Source: Gimesia algae
GTDB lineage: Bacteria; Planctomycetota; Planctomycetia; Planctomycetales; Planctomycetaceae
Assembly (NCBI RefSeq): GCF_007746795.1
Contig: NZ_CP036343.1
Span: forward strand, 6,214,357 to 6,278,356
Length of the DNA stretch: 64,000 nt
Reading direction: 5' to 3'
Shown piece by piece: positions 17,657 to 25,599 of the stretch (its first letter is position 1; every line of letters begins with the position of its first letter). Position numbers and translations under genes: made by a program. The notes beneath the pieces were generated by a model. That model was not told the origin of the DNA. It saw only the letters and a list, made by a program, of their open reading frames with translations, and ran no database searches.

Positions 17657-19267
17657 TCACATCACCGAAAAATAGTTTTCGACTGCAAAATCAAAAGCGG
17701 CTGGCGTCAGCTTTCGCGGGACTTCTTTGTAGACACAGAAGTTCTTGACCTGCAGTAGCAGGTCGCGAGGCTGACAGGCGCGAAACGGCCGATTGACGGC
17801 CTTGTAATGTGTATCGACCAGATACTCAAACGCCTGTTCGTCAAACTGAAAACCCATCATCGGTGCCATCAATTCGAAGAGAGACCGAAATTCTTCTTCG
17901 GAAGGGTCGAGGGCTTCAATCTTGTAGGGAATCCGGCGCAGGAACGCAGCGTCCACCAGATCTTTTGGTTCCAGATTTGTCGAAAAGATAATCAACTGGT
18001 CAAAGGGAACCTGAATTTTCTTACCACTGGGCAGATTCAGAAAGTCATACCGTTTTTCCAGAGGTACAATCCAGCGATTCAGCAGTTCGTCTACGGGCAT
18101 GCGCTGGCGTCCGAAGTCGTCAATCACAAACGTCCCGCAGTTACTTTTCAGTTGCAGTGGTGCCTCACAGATTTTCGTCTGTGGATTTTGAGTGATTTCC
18201 AACTCTTTCATGGTTAACTCACCACCGGCAATCACGGTGGGACGTACAATCTGTACCCAGCGCGGGTCGATGCCTGATAAATCAAACAGTCCTTCTGAAT
18301 GATCCTCCTGAAAGACCTCTTCATGTAATCCGGGATCGAAGATTCGGATAATATCTCCATCAATTCCCAGGCAACGGGGAATCCAGATCGTCGATCCGAA
18401 GGCTTTCGTGATCCGCTCGGCAATACTGGTTTTACCATTCCCAGCTTCGCCGAACAAAAACATACCGCGGCCTGAATTTACGGCTGGCCCCAGACGATCC
18501 AGCATCTTTGGATTGATTATCAAATCCGAAAATGCCGCTTTCAAATCAGCTTCTGTGGCTTCCTGCTTGGCAATGCTCTGTACTTCCATTGCCTTCAGAT
18601 AATCCTTAAAGCTCACCGGAGCAGAACCAAAGTAGGTACACTCCTGCGTGTAACGACGGGCTCTCTCGCGACCCAGCTCTGTAATCGTAAACTCGTAGTC
18701 GCCCATTTCGGCTGTTCCACCAAATGCGACCAGTTGATCCTGCTTGGCCCGCTTCAGAATGGTATCCACGATACCAAATGGAAGTTTGATCTGTGAACAG
18801 ATCTGACGCCCGGTCTGTGTTCCTTTGGCGAGCAGATACTTCAGGATCAGACGTTCAATTTCATCCTGCGTTAAACCGGTCTCTTCCAGCGTTTCCGGAC
18901 AATGCGGAACAAATTGTCCTTCTGCCTCTTCACTGTCCCCTTTCAGCAGGGACTGAACCCGGTTGAACAACTGGCTGAGATGCTGATCTTTTCCAATGAC
19001 ACGCATGGGTTCACTCACTCCCTTTGCCAGGGGCAAGTGCGCAGCAACAACACTGTTTTTTGATTGGATTTCTGACTCTGCCTCGCTGGAATCTTCATGT
19101 GAATTGAGATTCAGCATACTGAGTGAAGCGAGCAGTTCTTCTGTATTGACTGCATTGGAAGCAGTGCGACTCGATTTTCCTGAGCCATTGTTTTCAGATT
19201 TGGAATTCACTGCTACAGATTCGGAATCATTCGCTGACATATTCGGTTCGCAATCAATTATCTGCAC
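17657..19267 (-). CDS. AAA+ ATPase with N-terminal winged-helix-like domain
   Basis: A 536-residue protein. The first 100 residues are low-complexity, rich in Ser, Glu and Asn. Residues 125-210 look like a winged helix ([18 protein letters not shown] through [14 protein letters not shown]). The AAA module follows: Walker [11 protein letters not shown] near residue 275, and Walker [11 protein letters not shown] near 385, with a sensor [14 protein letters not shown] and an arginine-finger-like FLRRIP. It resembles the ATP-binding proteins found in many planctomycete genomes without known function. The frame starts at GTG 19267. An ATG nine codons later (19240) is equally possible, and neither has a clear ribosome-binding site. 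Confidence 0.7.
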
Positions 19268-19598: not shown

Positions 19599-21572
19599 AT
19601 GTGTGGAATCGCGGGTATCATTCGCTCTGACCAGGCTCCGGTCAAACAGTCAGAATTACAGGCCATGATTGAAACCCTGAACCATCGGGGACCCGATGCC
19701 TCAGGGATCTCAACGTGTGGTCCTGTTGGTTTCGCACACAGTCGATTAAGTATTGTGGATCTCGCCGGGGGACTGCAGCCCATGCAGACACCCGATGGCC
19801 TGCTGACAGTTACTTTCAATGGCGAGATATTTAACCACATCGAATTACGCGCTCAGCTCAAAAGCAAAGGTTATGAGTTTCGCACACATTCTGATACCGA
19901 AGTCATTCTGCACATGTATGTGGAATATGGACCCGAGTGTGTCCAGCACTTTAACGGGCAATGGGCGTTTGCCATTCATGACCGTAAACGAAAAGAAGTC
20001 TTCCTCTCCCGCGATCGAATGGGGATCCGCCCGCTGGTTTACACACAAACCCCGGGGCAAATGAGCTTCGCCTCTGAAGTCAAAGCTTTATTTGCATTAC
20101 CTGATGTCAAACGGGAAGTGGATCTGACTGCCTTAAATGAGCTGTTTACGTTCTGGTCACCACTGCCTCCCCGAACATTTTTTGCGGGCGTCAATGAACT
20201 GCCTCCTGCACACTCGATGATTGTGAAAGATGGCCAGATTAAAATCTGGCAATACTGGCATCTCGACTACCAGCCGAACGAAGACAGCCGCTCACTTGAT
20301 GACTGGGCAGAAGAATTACGCGATCTGTTGATCAATGCTACTCAACTGCGATTACGTGCCGATGTGTCCGTCGGTGCCTACCTCAGTGGTGGACTCGATT
20401 CTTCTGTGACCGCAGCCATCATTCGAAATTATACGAACGCCCCCCTGAATACTTTTTCGGTAAACTTCAACGATAAAGATTACGACGAAAGCAGCTATCA
20501 GCAGGAGATGATCCGTGAACTGGGAACTGATCATCAGACGGTCTGCTGCTCTTATGAAGATATCGGCCGCATCTTCCCTACTGTCATTCAACACACTGAA
20601 AAACCTGTTCTGCGTACAGCCCCCGCTCCCATGTACCTGCTGTCAAAACTTGTCCGGGACAGTCAGTTCAAAGTGGTGATGACTGGCGAAGGTGCAGATG
20701 AAGTACTGGGCGGATACGACATCTTTAAGGAAACCAAAATCCGCCGCTTCTGGAGCCGTCAACCCGATTCCGCAATCAGACCGCTGTTGCTGAAACGACT
20801 CTATCCTTACATGAAAAATCTGCAGGCACAGTCTCCCGCCTATCTCAAGGCGTTTTTCAAAATCCGTCAGGAGGAAATCGACAGCCCGTTTTTCTCTCAT
20901 TTGCCACGCTGGGATTTGACATCGAAACTGAAAAATTTCTTCAGCGCAGACGTGAAACAGCAACTCGCTCACCAGGATCCGCTGGCAGACTTTGAAAGTC
21001 AACTCCCCCGACAGTTCTCTGAATGGCCTTCGTTCTGTCAGGCTCAATACCTGGAATCAGTCAATCTGATGCCGGGCTACATTCTCTCCTCACAGGGAGA
21101 CCGCATGGCGATGGGTAATTCGATTGAAGGACGATTCCCGTTCCTGGATTATCGGGTTGTGGAGTTCGCAGCTCGCATCCCTGTCCGATTCAAAATGAAC
21201 GGCCTGAATGAGAAATTTCTACTGAAACATGCTATGCGAGATCTGATTCCCGACAGTATCCGCAAACGCCCCAAGCAACCTTACCGCGCCCCCGATGCGC
21301 ACAGCTTTATTGATACACAAAAACAATCACCCCGCTTTGAATACGTAAACCACTTATTGTCCGCTGAGAAACTTCAGGAAAATGGCTTGTTCCAGCCAGA
21401 GGCAGTCCAGCGACTTGTCAAAAAGATTGAACAGGGACGTGCGATTGGCACACGTGACAACATGGCCCTGGTGGGAATCCTTTCTACTCAATTGCTCGTC
21501 GAGCAGATGATCCAAGGCAAAACCGTGTCAACAAACCAGAATACAACGGCCAGCGCAACAACACTTGCCTGA
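19599..21572 (+). CDS. asnB: Glutamine-hydrolysing asparagine synthase family amidotransferase
   Basis: A 657-residue class II amidotransferase. Cys2 is the N-terminal nucleophile of the glutaminase domain (MCGIAGI, then NHRGPDASG, FNGEIFN). The synthetase domain carries the pyrophosphate loop SGGLDSS at residues 263-269 and GEGADEVLGGYD further on. Length and order match AsnB, which makes asparagine, but homologues in polysaccharide and secondary-metabolite loci amidate other carboxylates. Here an acyl carrier protein and an AMP-forming ligase follow at once. A role in making an amide on a special product is therefore as likely as asparagine supply (inference). No strong ribosome-binding site precedes the ATG. 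Confidence 0.85.
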   Translation: MCGIAGIIRSDQAPVKQSELQAMIETLNHRGPDASGISTCGPVGFAHSRLSIVDLAGGLQPMQTPDGLLTVTFNGEIFNHIELRAQLKSKGYEFRTHSDTEVILHMYVEYGPECVQHFNGQWAFAIHDRKRKEVFLSRDRMGIRPLVYTQTPGQMSFASEVKALFALPDVKREVDLTALNELFTFWSPLPPRTFFAGVNELPPAHSMIVKDGQIKIWQYWHLDYQPNEDSRSLDDWAEELRDLLINATQLRLRADVSVGAYLSGGLDSSVTAAIIRNYTNAPLNTFSVNFNDKDYDESSYQQEMIRELGTDHQTVCCSYEDIGRIFPTVIQHTEKPVLRTAPAPMYLLSKLVRDSQFKVVMTGEGADEVLGGYDIFKETKIRRFWSRQPDSAIRPLLLKRLYPYMKNLQAQSPAYLKAFFKIRQEEIDSPFFSHLPRWDLTSKLKNFFSADVKQQLAHQDPLADFESQLPRQFSEWPSFCQAQYLESVNLMPGYILSSQGDRMAMGNSIEGRFPFLDYRVVEFAARIPVRFKMNGLNEKFLLKHAMRDLIPDSIRKRPKQPYRAPDAHSFIDTQKQSPRFEYVNHLLSAEKLQENGLFQPEAVQRLVKKIEQGRAIGTRDNMALVGILSTQLLVEQMIQGKTVSTNQNTTASATTLA

Positions 21573-21623
21573 TTCAAACACGCTTTAGATTTACTCAACA
21601 ACGATAATTTCAAAGGTAGCAAA

Positions 21624-21881
21624 ATGAACTCGATCCAAAATGATGTACGAAACTTTGTCGCAGAAAATTTCCTGTTCGGCGAAGACCCTGCTTCACTTCA
21701 CAATGATGACTCGTTCCTGGAAACCGGCATCATCGACTCTACAGGCGTTCTGGAACTGGTGGCTTTCATTGAAGATCACTACGACGTCGCAGTAGATGAT
21801 GACGAACTGGTTCCGGAAAACCTGGACTCCATTGATCGACTGATTACCTTTATTGAATCCAAACTCAAAGAATTAGCTTAA
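21624..21881 (+). CDS. Acyl/peptidyl carrier protein
   Basis: An 85-residue acidic helical protein with the phosphopantetheine attachment Ser39 in the motif TGIIDSTGVLEL. The usual carrier-protein consensus is DSL, and here it is DST. The rest (FLETGI, then FIEDHYDVAVDDDELVPEN and a last helix LITFIESKL) fits the four-helix carrier fold. It lies 51 bases after asnB and 25 bases before the AMP-forming ligase, so the ligase probably loads an acyl or aminoacyl group onto it. It is not the housekeeping AcpP by context. Confidence 0.85.
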   Translation: MNSIQNDVRNFVAENFLFGEDPASLHNDDSFLETGIIDSTGVLELVAFIEDHYDVAVDDDELVPENLDSIDRLITFIESKLKELA

Positions 21882-21906
21882 ATCTTAAATACTGAGGAGC
21901 AGACCT

Positions 21907-23463
21907 TTGTTGCTGCAATCATTTTTAGAAAACAGTGCGCGCGAGTATCCGGACAAGGTGGCTTTGATCATTGATCAACAGCGCTATACCTATCAGGAAC
22001 TTGAGCTGCAAAGTAATCGTCTGGCACAGGCACTGCTCCAGCGGGGACTGCAGCGGGGTGATCGTGTTGCCATCCATCTGGATAATTCACTGGAAGCAAC
22101 CGTCGCGATCTTTGCGGTCTTGAAAGCGGGTGGCGTCTTTGTCATGGTCAACCCCACCACAAAGATTGATAAACTGACCTATGTCTTGAATAACTGCAGA
22201 GCCACGGCGCTGATCATTCCGGACAAAAAACAGAATCTGATACTGGAACACGCGGCCCTGCTGCCTCATTTGAAAACCGTCATTGCAACCGGTTCAAAAT
22301 GCGATCAGCCGGAAAGTACGGAATGGCAACTTCTGCGATTTGAATCATGGGATCAGTTGCAGAGCGAATATGCAAGCCAGCTCACACCGCCGACAATTAA
22401 AACCATCAGCATCGATCTGGCTGCCCTGGTCTACACATCAGGCTCGACTGGAAATCCCAAAGGAGTCATGCTCACTCACTTAAACATGACCTCGGCTGCC
22501 CGCTCGATCACCACCTATCTGATGAATGAGCCATCCGACATTATTTTAAATGTCCTGCCGCTCTCATTCGATTACGGCCTGTACCAGTTACTGATGGCTT
22601 TCCGGGTGGGAGCGACTCTGGTTCTCGAAAAATCATTCACGTATCCCCATGCAGTGTTGCAGAAAATTATCGACGAACAGGTCACTGGTTTTCCACTGGT
22701 GCCGACCATGTCAGCGATTCTACTCAAGATGGATCTCTCGAAGTACGATTTTTCCAAACTGCGTTACATTACTAACACGGGAGCCGCCTTACCCACAGAA
22801 CACATTCTCACTTTCCGCAAACGTCTGCCACACGTTCAGATTTTCTCGATGTATGGCCTGACGGAATGCAAACGCGTTTCCTATCTCCCCCTGAATCAGG
22901 TAGATATCAGAACCGGATCAGTCGGAATCGCCATGCCTGACTCAGAAGTCTTTATTGTCGATGACGCAGGGCACCTCCTGCCTGCTGAACAGACTGGCGA
23001 ACTGGTTGTTCGGGGCGCCAACGTCATGCTCGGGTACTGGGAAGCACCGGAACTCACAGCGGAACGATTAAAACCAGGTGAACTGCCAGGTGAAATGTAT
23101 CTCTATACCGGCGACTTGTTCCGTATGGACACGGAAGGTTACCTGTACTTTGTCGGTCGACGTGATGACATTATTAAAAGCCGGGGCGAGAAAGTCAGCC
23201 CCAAAGAAGTCGAAAATGTTCTGTTCGCACATCCGGCGATTTCCGAAGTGGCCATCGTGGGTGATCCCGACCCGATACTCGGTCAGTCCATTCGTGCCGT
23301 CGTAACAGTGATGCCTGAACAGGAACTGACAGAAAAAGAAGTACTCGCTTACTGTCGCAAACACCTTGAGGATTTCATGGTACCCCAGAAGGTCGAATTC
23401 CGGGACGAACTGCCAAAATCCCCCAATGGGAAAATTGATAAGAAACAGCTGGTTCTTTCCTGA
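21907..23463 (+). CDS. AMP-forming acyl-CoA/acyl-ACP ligase (ANL superfamily)
   Basis: A 518-residue adenylate-forming enzyme. It has the P-loop YTSGSTGNPKG (176-186), the YGLTE-type A5 motif (MYGLTECKR), the hinge region (YLYTGDLFRMDTEGYLYFVGR, then SRGEKVSPKEVE) and the C-terminal catalytic lysine in SPNGKIDKKQL. It activates a carboxylate with ATP and passes it to CoA or a carrier, probably the adjacent ACP. The start is TTG at 21907 with GAGGAG seven bases upstream, which decides it. It resembles the acyl-CoA ligases that accompany exosortase/exopolysaccharide loci, which also carry asparagine-synthase-like genes. No exosortase is seen here. Confidence 0.85.
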   Translation: MLLQSFLENSAREYPDKVALIIDQQRYTYQELELQSNRLAQALLQRGLQRGDRVAIHLDNSLEATVAIFAVLKAGGVFVMVNPTTKIDKLTYVLNNCRATALIIPDKKQNLILEHAALLPHLKTVIATGSKCDQPESTEWQLLRFESWDQLQSEYASQLTPPTIKTISIDLAALVYTSGSTGNPKGVMLTHLNMTSAARSITTYLMNEPSDIILNVLPLSFDYGLYQLLMAFRVGATLVLEKSFTYPHAVLQKIIDEQVTGFPLVPTMSAILLKMDLSKYDFSKLRYITNTGAALPTEHILTFRKRLPHVQIFSMYGLTECKRVSYLPLNQVDIRTGSVGIAMPDSEVFIVDDAGHLLPAEQTGELVVRGANVMLGYWEAPELTAERLKPGELPGEMYLYTGDLFRMDTEGYLYFVGRRDDIIKSRGEKVSPKEVENVLFAHPAISEVAIVGDPDPILGQSIRAVVTVMPEQELTEKEVLAYCRKHLEDFMVPQKVEFRDELPKSPNGKIDKKQLVLS

Positions 23464-23539
23464 AACAGACCTCCAAGCCAACACGAAAACTCAGATTCGC
23501 TCTTACGCGATCAGCACAACTCATGAGGATGAAACGACA

Positions 23540-24523
23540 ATGATTATACAAACCAGAACCTTCAAACCCGAACTACTGAACCTTGACTACGCAGCGGAAA
23601 CAGATCGTATTGTCAGCTGGATGCAGGAAACGGTTCGTAAAACCATGCGAAAAAAGGGGGCTGTCCTGGGGCTCTCCGGAGGCATCGACAGCAGTGTCGT
23701 GACAGCGCTCTGCGTGCGGGCTTTCGGTGCAGATCGGGTGCTGGGAATCATGATGCCCGAACACGATACCAAGGACGAAAGTTTAACCTATGGTCAGTTA
23801 CTGGCAGATCATTTCAATGTAGAAGCCATCGTGGAGAACATCTCTCCCATGCTGCAGGGCGCCGGCTGTTATGAACGCCGCGACGTCGCCATTAAACAGG
23901 TAATCCCGGAATACGAACCACACTGGAAATCCAAAATCGTTCTGCCCAACCTGCTCAAGGAAGGTGGATACCGGGTCTTTTCGGTTGTCGTTCAGACACC
24001 CGAAGGAGAATTCATCAAGAAACGTCTGCCCCTCTCTGCCTACCAGACGATTGTCGCTGCGACAAACTTTAAACAGCGCTGTCGCAAGATGATGGAATAT
24101 TATCACGCCGACCGTTTAAACTACGCCGTTCCCGGCACTCCCAATCGTCTCGAATATGATCAGGGCTTCTTCGTCAAAAACGGCGATGGCGCAGCTGATC
24201 TGAAACCAATCGCCCATCTATATAAAACTCAGGTATACCAACTCGCCGAGTATCTTGAAGTACCGGAAGTGATTCGGATGCGTCCGCCGACAACAGACAC
24301 CTACTCTCTGGAACAGTCCCAGGAAGAGTTTTTCTTCGCTGTTTCCTACGACAAACTCGACTGCTGCCTGTACGGCCTGAATCACGGTTATACCGCAGAA
24401 GAAGTTGCCGCGGGCACTGGTCTGCCAGCCGAACAGGTTGCCCTGGTTTATGGCGACATCGAATCTAAACGCAAAGCAGGCCACTACCTGCATCTGCCGC
24501 CACAGCTGATTGAATCCATCTGA
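23540..24523 (+). CDS. NAD synthase-like N-type ATP pyrophosphatase
   Basis: A 327-residue protein of the ammonia-type NAD synthase family. It has the pyrophosphate loop LGLSGGIDSSVV (Ser-Gly-Gly at 46-48), PEHDTKDESL, and KNGDGAADLKPIAHLYKTQV, which matches the NadE signature. It lacks an N-terminal nitrilase domain, so it uses free ammonia or a partner's ammonia. The frame is open upstream to 23366, but that part overlaps the ligase gene in another frame. ATG 23540 with GAGGA ten bases upstream is preferred. It is longer than typical NadE, with an insertion around residues 110-190 (GYRVFSVVVQTPEGEF and following). Sitting between a ligase and a polysaccharide deacetylase, it may be a dedicated amide-forming enzyme rather than the cell's NadE. 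Confidence 0.8.
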   Translation: MIIQTRTFKPELLNLDYAAETDRIVSWMQETVRKTMRKKGAVLGLSGGIDSSVVTALCVRAFGADRVLGIMMPEHDTKDESLTYGQLLADHFNVEAIVENISPMLQGAGCYERRDVAIKQVIPEYEPHWKSKIVLPNLLKEGGYRVFSVVVQTPEGEFIKKRLPLSAYQTIVAATNFKQRCRKMMEYYHADRLNYAVPGTPNRLEYDQGFFVKNGDGAADLKPIAHLYKTQVYQLAEYLEVPEVIRMRPPTTDTYSLEQSQEEFFFAVSYDKLDCCLYGLNHGYTAEEVAAGTGLPAEQVALVYGDIESKRKAGHYLHLPPQLIESI

Positions 24524-24585
24524 GATACATTTGAAAAATGAATGTGTATCGCCAGATTAGAAATCACCTGAAAGGAACCTGCTCC

Positions 24586-25599
24586 GTGAGTAAAAAAGAA
24601 CTGCTGGCCAAAGCGCTCGACTGGACCGGAATGAATCTGCTTGCCCGCAATGCCTCCGTCTGGAATGGTCTGTTGGTGTTAAATTATCACCGCGTTGGTG
24701 ATATAAACAATTCCGTGTTTGACCATGACCTATGGAGTGCGTCCGCAGCAGATTTTGAAAAGCAGATTCGATTTCTCAGTCTAAATTTCGATATGATCCG
24801 CATCCGTGATCTGGATCATATCTGGAATCAGCCACGGGGACGGTATGTTCTCGTTACGTTCGACGATGGTTACCTTGATAATTATGAATGGGCGTTTCCC
24901 ATTATTAAATCGTACAACGCCCCCGCGACGTTTTTCCTGACAACCGGTTTTCTCGATGACAGAAAAGTGGCCTGGTGGGATGAAATTGCCTGGATGGTCC
25001 GCAGCGCAACTCGGCAGCGGATTCAGTCCAACGTGTTGACTGGCAACTGCCTGTCGCTACATCCGGATGACTGTGAGCAATCGATTAAAGTCCTGTTGAG
25101 TACTTTTAAAAAACTGAGCGGAGATCAGACAGACAACTTTCTGAACTTTCTGTCCGAAGCAACCGGCGCAGGTCGCTGCCCGCAGGAGATCGCAGATCAC
25201 GTCTGGATGACCTGGGATATGATCCGCGAAATGAACGAAGCCGGCATGGACATCGGAGGCCACACCGTCACTCATCCCATTCTGTCCCGGCACTCTCCCG
25301 AGATACAACAGTTTGAAATCGAACACTGTAAACAACGGATTGAAACAGAAATCGGACAGGAAATCACCAGCTTCAGCTACCCGGTCGGCGGTAAAGACTG
25401 CTTTAACCAGCACACCCGGGACTGTCTGGTTCAAGCCGGATTCCGCTGGGGTTTCAGCTACTACGGCGGCTTTGCACCACTCGGAAAACCCGATCAGTGG
25501 GACCTTCCCCGAATTGCAGTGGAATCCGAAGAGCCGGCATCTCTATTTCGTGCTTCGGTTTCGATTCCGCAGGTCTTTAGCAGTAAAAAGTGTACATAA
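24586..25599 (+). CDS. Polysaccharide deacetylase family protein
   Basis: A carbohydrate-esterase-4 (NodB) type protein of 337 residues from GTG 24586. That start has AAAGGA nine bases upstream. An ATG at 24538 extends the frame by 16 codons but has no ribosome-binding site. Motifs are the opening LVLNYHRVG, the metal-binding TFDDGYLDNY and GGHTVTHPILSRH with the HxxxH pair, then FSYPVGGKDCF. The aspartates and histidines needed for zinc binding are present. The enzyme removes acetyl groups from a cell-surface glycan. It is the last gene of the five-gene run and links that locus to polysaccharide or glycolipid synthesis. There is no signal peptide, so it may act before export. Confidence 0.82.
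   Translation: MSKKELLAKALDWTGMNLLARNASVWNGLLVLNYHRVGDINNSVFDHDLWSASAADFEKQIRFLSLNFDMIRIRDLDHIWNQPRGRYVLVTFDDGYLDNYEWAFPIIKSYNAPATFFLTTGFLDDRKVAWWDEIAWMVRSATRQRIQSNVLTGNCLSLHPDDCEQSIKVLLSTFKKLSGDQTDNFLNFLSEATGAGRCPQEIADHVWMTWDMIREMNEAGMDIGGHTVTHPILSRHSPEIQQFEIEHCKQRIETEIGQEITSFSYPVGGKDCFNQHTRDCLVQAGFRWGFSYYGGFAPLGKPDQWDLPRIAVESEEPASLFRASVSIPQVFSSKKCT

Follow-up and report, generated by a model that had tools for sequence, protein, structure and literature searches.

An AsnB-like amidotransferase, an acyl carrier protein (ACP), an AMP-forming ligase and a NadE-like protein, encoded one after another in a 64,000-nucleotide stretch of DNA from Gimesia algae (contig NZ_CP036343.1; the whole stretch is referred to below as the window), form a conserved four-gene module that is kept, in several gene orders, in distant phyla. 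In the genus Gimesia the module is adjoined by a polysaccharide deacetylase. An earlier note on this DNA had described five co-directional genes of these families, and all five reading frames were confirmed on the + strand with the same family assignments. We suggest tentatively, with slightly less than even confidence, that the module builds an amidated (amino)acyl group on its carrier and transfers this group to a glycan at the cell surface.

Conservation of the module in distant phyla

Strong matches to the NadE-like protein (36-62% identity) were found outside the genus in 10 genomes, at 11 loci, of a phylum sample of 392 genomes. A scan of genome contigs returned at least 80 loci, 29 of the module kind (41-63% identity) and 51 weaker ones that were taken as a housekeeping NadE control. 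Among the matches listed, the 29 loci belong to Pseudomonadota, Acidobacteriota, Nitrospirota, Spirochaetota, Ignavibacteriota, Actinomycetota, Myxococcota, Gemmatimonadota, Planctomycetota and KSB1. The 11 and 29 loci together give 40 module loci outside the genus, whose NadE-like proteins (36-63% identity, the most distant being L060 at 36%) were selected by identity and not by the cut-off of the family model NF002048. Near the NadE-like gene, AsnB is present in 29 of the 40 module loci, ACP in 28 and the ligase in 29, compared with 0, 0 and 3 of the 51 housekeeping NadE loci. These partner counts refute chance adjacency of the four-gene core.

A second sample was obtained by searching 398 genomes from the phylum of genome G397 with NF002048, which gave 15 loci above the cut-off including the central one. 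AsnB accompanies the NadE-like gene in 13 of the 14 further loci, and ACP and ligase in all 14; the order AsnB-ACP-ligase-NadE of the window is found in six and the order NadE-AsnB-ligase-ACP in five. Conservation among relatives, which the earlier note had proposed to look for, is thus seen as retention of the set across distant phyla, in several orders and with controls. Distances between AsnB proteins and between NadE-like proteins are correlated (r=0.52, 28 rows, 0/2000 permutations), and the tree of the NadE-like proteins, in which many forks are unresolved, is incongruent with the phyla. An NF002048 match above the cut-off in Methanosarcina acetivorans, a control genome, indicates that the NadE-like subtype reaches archaea.

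The NadE-like protein

The NadE-like gene, which encodes a predicted amide synthetase of 327 residues, occupies positions 23540 to 24523 of the window on the + strand; its start is most likely the ATG at 23540, since the listed open reading frame from 23366 begins within the ligase gene. The protein scores 499 bits against NF002048 (PRK00876), whose cut-off is 313 bits, and has the NadE fold with the N-type ATP pyrophosphatase loop. It resembles ammonia-dependent NAD synthetase NadE and NMN synthetase in fold, in the SGGxDS loop and in other residues on the ATP side, but differs from them in two respects. The PSAxLWxGQTDExE motif, kept in the housekeeping NadE proteins compared, is missing, and in the family the stretch PSAxLWxGQTDE is replaced by PTTDTYSxxQxQEEFYF (a comparison of 30 rows of the family with 23 taken from the 51 housekeeping loci); in the window the changed motif reads PTTDTYSLEQSQEEFFF (24287 to 24337, +). 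The second difference is an insertion of roughly 50 residues by alignment estimate, encoded in the region 23858 to 24034 (+) and absent from the housekeeping NadE proteins compared. The ATP half of NadE is kept, but as the motif is replaced the label 'NAD(+) synthase' is probably wrong, and the protein is probably not the NAD synthetase of the cell.

The genome also encodes two further NadE proteins (L001 and L002), with N-termini that by eye are nitrilase-like; its glutamine-dependent NadE carries the variant PSAELAPNQVDQD of the housekeeping motif. A separate NadE is listed in 44 of 48 genomes searched, and G314, G401, G409 and G413 have no second NadE among the matches listed. Two further full AsnB-like proteins (L006 and L007) are likewise encoded in the G. 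algae genome. The earlier note had reasoned that sole copies of asnB and nadE would favour unrelated housekeeping genes, and this reading was rejected since additional copies of both exist.

The amidotransferase, carrier and ligase

The AsnB-like glutamine-dependent amidotransferase (657 residues; 19599 to 21572, +) has an intact Cys2 and SGGLDSS loop and scores above the cut-off of asparagine synthase TIGR01536 (525 vs 267 bits) and below that of the exosortase-A amidotransferase TIGR03108 (425 < 817 bits). Residues were counted after dropping AsnB, ACP and ligase homologues of less than 33% identity and short matches. Cys2 is present in 25 of 28 AsnB-like rows, the SGG-DS loop and GEG-DE in 28 of 28, and the subfamily stretch KQPYRAP, of which K559, P561, Y562, R563, A564 and P565 were counted, in 27-28 of 28; L006 and L007 lack this stretch. 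Glycan amidotransferases related to AsnB exist, such as WbpS, which amidates uronic acids in O-antigens; another AsnB-like enzyme, OxyD, amidates carrier- or CoA-bound malonate. PMC3684757 places asparagine synthases labelled wbpS in a Rubrivivax polysaccharide cluster, and PMC9012009 mentions that the gene cluster for the floc polysaccharide of Zoogloea includes two asparagine synthetase genes.

The acyl or peptidyl carrier protein (85 residues; 21624 to 21881, +) exceeds the cut-off of PF00550 (26.0 vs 20.8 bits) and carries its phosphopantetheine serine within GIIDSTG; this serine (DS) is found in 29 of 29 ACP rows.

The AMP-forming ligase, or free-standing adenylation enzyme (518 residues; 21907 to 23463, +; TTG start), has the exosortase-A ligase TIGR03098 as its best NCBIfam match, below the cut-off (499 < 592 bits), and adenylation domains of nonribosomal peptide synthetases (NRPS) as its best matches among solved structures. 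Two subtypes with different pockets make up the ligase family. That of the window mostly has FDYGLY, with an Asp at the position at which NRPS adenylation domains presumably bind the amino group (exceptions are L064, L074, L079 and L086), and the second subtype lacks this residue, so that the Asp is present in 14 of 24 rows overall, its position being set by anchors; the Arg of MYGxTE(C/A)..R is present in 24 of 24. The pair resembles a free-standing NRPS adenylation enzyme with its carrier, except that the Asp is shared by one part of the module ligases only. The pocket gave no decisive reading of a substrate code.

The module in Sinorhizobium meliloti

The NadE-like gene was found in 116 plasmid records, of which 76 are from Sinorhizobium. 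On pSymB of S. meliloti 1021 (NC_003078) the module has the order of the window, with AsnB at 1455388-1453493, ACP at 1453418-1453188, the ligase at 1453124-1451616 and NadE at 1451553-1450597 (all match coordinates). Given this order and the single place on pSymB that the ACP query matches at E 1e-3, the ligase and carrier are very probably SMb20650 and SMb20651, an identification made by position in a pSymB record that carries no annotation and not from locus tags. PMC7232532 states that the ligase SMb20650, encoded on pSymB, is cotranscribed with SMb20651, that co-expression in E. coli yields acylated SMb20651 (citing Ramos-Vega 2009) and that SMb20650 is unable to replace FadD, and PMC5686131 calls for more work on what SMc01553 and SMb20651 do.

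The locus in the genus Gimesia

The five-gene arrangement is present in 10 of 10 same-genus genomes examined and is whole in nine (the window and L042-L049). The tenth, G227, seemed to lack the module, but the end of one contig encodes AsnB residues 1-320 and the end of another encodes deacetylase residues 44-347 (contigs C82 and C27), so a gap in the assembly appears to have swallowed the middle of the set. A loss in this genome was rejected, and the case shows that absences in draft genomes call for caution. The dN/dS ratio of the five genes is 0.02-0.11 where dS is unsaturated (five of the eight other same-genus loci). In 18 genomes from other genera of the family, the NadE-like query gave matches of housekeeping level in 15 (best E 6e-9) and none in three. 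A comparison with an empty site in these genera was dropped, the orthologues of P0008 (rpsD-like) and P0007 being more than 200 kb apart where they are on one contig.

The polysaccharide deacetylase family protein (P0005, 353 residues; 24538 to 25599, +) exceeds the cut-off of PF01522 (90.9 vs 23.1 bits) and contains TFDDGY and HTVTH, which we take to be the motifs of its family. As a neighbour it is constant within the genus only, although a deacetylase also stands beside the module, upstream of ACP, in Azospirillum ramasamyi. The set that belongs together is accordingly the four-gene core, and the deacetylase could be a bystander.

The intergenic gaps are 51, 25, 76 and 14 bases in order, the last falling outside the range of 25-76 bases given earlier. 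A terminator scan returned 8 candidate hairpins compared with a mean of 7.2 in shuffled sequences, and both + strand candidates are intragenic; there is thus no evidence of an internal terminator, in agreement with the earlier note.

Two further genes of the window lie near the module on the - strand. One encodes a flippase-like protein (LPG_synthase_TM, TIGR00374; 15889-16929) whose proximity to the module is conserved in the genus. The other encodes an ATPase-like protein (17657-19267) that has no Pfam match, matches the anti-phage ATPase IteA only weakly (24.8 vs 510 bits) and turned up in every one of the 19 family genomes searched, mostly with paralogues.

Neighbours of the module in other genomes

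Some module loci lie in polysaccharide clusters, namely those of A. ramasamyi, Ensifer, Chelativorans, Devosia, Nitrospira and Sedimentisphaerales; the cluster of A. ramasamyi contains genes for a deacetylase, ACP, ligase, AsnB, NadE and a GNAT in succession. The earlier note had proposed an amidated glycolipid or a surface polysaccharide as the product; these relatives count in favour of its reading, and an amidated glycolipid has no specific support.

Two recurrent neighbour families were compared in 80 of 102 listed genomes, 43 with and 37 without the module. The first (A3) is secreted-looking, with a motif FFGHQSVG...D.GHLN that by eye is SGNH-like, and the one member scanned matches nothing in Pfam or NCBIfam. 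It occurs in 8 of the 40 module loci, the source locus included (for example L083:484-4803, L061:7714-8544, L067:12551-13309 and L071:16321-17163, with four close copies in L083). As a general partner it was rejected and is considered optional, since it occurs in 11 of the 43 genomes that carry the module, in 0 of the 37 that lack it and in none of the four own-genus genomes searched.

The second (A4), GNAT-like and about 375 residues long, lies near the module in alphaproteobacteria (L065:10974-12110, L063, L066, L069, L070 and L086); it has a predicted tandem-GNAT fold, and a scan of one member gave no match in Pfam or NCBIfam. It is found in 7 of the 43 genomes with the module and 2 of the 37 without, 24 candidates being scored in many genomes.

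In three loci a further likely N-type pyrophosphatase is encoded within 10 kb of the NadE-like gene (L059:6437-7585, L087:13675-14670 and L089:17566-18612). Its relatives include the N-acetyl sugar amidotransferases of the WbuX family; the L087 member, which was scanned, scores below the cut-off of that family.

Proposed function and alternatives

We infer the following scheme for the substrate, for the sequence of the two amidation steps, for the glycan that is modified and for what the deacetylase does. The ligase would adenylate a carboxylic or amino acid and load it onto ACP, such loading having been reported for the very probable S. meliloti pair. The AsnB-like protein would then use glutamine as nitrogen donor to turn a carboxylate, perhaps one of the carrier-bound group, into an amide. 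The NadE-like protein might use ATP and ammonia to amidate a second carboxylate, and a nucleotide-linked sugar is conceivable as its target because NadE itself acts on a nucleotide-linked carboxylate. Finally, the deacetylase, here P0005, may free a sugar amine onto which an N-acyltransferase would move the acyl group; the GNAT beside the module in several alphaproteobacteria is a candidate transferase there.

Several observations weigh against this proposal. None of the three partners is found at 6 of the 40 module loci (L054, L055 and L060 among the 11 phylum loci; L075, L078 and L081 among the 29 of the contig scan), two of the six being on contigs shorter than 8 kb. Distances of NadE-like protein and ligase give the weakest correlated pair (r=0.23, 98/2000 permutations), and the two ligase subtypes with their different pockets make a single common substrate doubtful. 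The best NCBIfam match of ACP is the ornithine-lipid ACP NF052616, below the cut-off (69 < 130 bits). A Pfam scan of 15 neighbours in the window found no glycosyltransferase and no polymer-export gene. The genome has a single Wzz match, and the glycan queries hit nothing in the 40 kb around it; some open reading frames there look by eye like glycogen and epimerase genes. By the queries used, 24 of the 40 module loci have no glycan gene, and the excess of glycan genes in the module group leans on hexapeptide acetyltransferases (9 of 39 vs 1 of 51); the queries were single sequences from module loci, with hits to their own loci left out, which makes the comparison insensitive and tilts it towards the module group. 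The nearest neighbours of the module in S. meliloti Ak57, Mesorhizobium ciceri and a Shinella are not glycan genes. Lastly, neither A3 nor A4, both optional partners, was matched in the four genomes of the own genus searched.

Some of these observations suit the alternative that the module makes a small amidated metabolite or a lipid head group by carrier-tethered chemistry of the NRPS-like or aminolipid kind, the neighbouring glycan genes being incidental. The ligase is most like NRPS adenylation domains among solved structures, ACP is nearest to ornithine-lipid and cispentacin ACP families (below their cut-offs), and glycan genes are missing both from the scanned neighbours in the window and from the immediate surroundings of the module on the S. 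meliloti Ak57, Mesorhizobium and Shinella plasmids. However, the relatives within polysaccharide clusters argue for a glycan, a lipopolysaccharide biosynthesis protein and two GNATs lie about 10-15 kb beyond the module in Ak57, and deacetylase and N-acyltransferase neighbours would suit a polymer. This alternative is possible, though on the whole rather unlikely.

A less probable alternative is that the module modifies a glycan or glycolipid anchor of exosortase/PEP-CTERM sorting and was retained in some lineages after exosortase loss. The ligase and the AsnB-like protein score against the XrtA-associated families TIGR03098 and TIGR03108, L087 and the Nitrospira locus L067 have an exosortase gene close to the module, an exosortase was found in 16 of 48 other genomes searched, and relatives of the XrtA-associated hydrolases (TIGR03100/03101) occur in L056, where scanned members fall below the cut-offs, and by blast in L053 and L059. 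On the other hand, the AsnB-like protein and ligase of the window are below both cut-offs, and the NadE-like partner is not among the XrtA-named families matched here. The earlier note had seen no exosortase at the locus, and this extends to the whole genome, which, like nine other genomes of the genus, has no match to PF09721. No match was obtained in 23 of 39 genomes outside the genus, several of them incomplete. Given the own genome and the count of 16 in 48, dependence on an exosortase was rejected, and the anchor reading is improbable.

It is very improbable that the NadE-like protein is an ammonia-dependent NAD synthetase placed in the operon by accident, beside a separate set of acyl ligase and amidotransferase, since AsnB, ACP and ligase constantly adjoin its gene, other NadE genes exist in the same genomes, and the motif is replaced and an insertion added. 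Unrelated housekeeping genes adjacent by chance, a reading that the housekeeping genes flanking the module (among them a citrate synthase, a sigma factor and, by eye, an S4-like ribosomal protein) might seem to favour, are hardly credible in view of the conservation across distant phyla, in several orders and with controls.

Significance

A literature search found no paper on AsnB, ACP, ligase and NadE-like protein as a unit, and a term search of the accessible part of Haft 2006 (PMC1569441) found no occurrence of 'amidotransferase', 'asparagine synth', 'acyl carrier', 'ligase', 'NAD synth' or 'TIGR03098'. The earlier note had called the locus its best candidate for an undescribed system; the set is not wholly undescribed, because AsnB and ligase are related to families named for exosortase A; what is new is the NadE-like partner and the exosortase-free spread of a module whose pieces are partly known.

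The family annotated as NAD(+) synthase, including its members on symbiotic Sinorhizobium megaplasmids, is probably mislabelled. Generalizing from the glycan proposal, and just as tentatively, the NF002048 'NAD(+) synthases' as a class may be not NAD synthetases but a repurposed NadE-fold amide synthetase that, together with a dedicated AsnB-like protein, ACP and ligase, makes a doubly amidated substituent for the surface glycans of bacteria and perhaps archaea. If true, this would be a new job for the NadE fold and would place SMb20651, the orphan carrier of S. meliloti, in a pathway. Two questions, the role of SMb20651 with its ligase and the chemistry of AsnB and ligase genes beside exopolysaccharide clusters, thereby become testable in a tractable organism.

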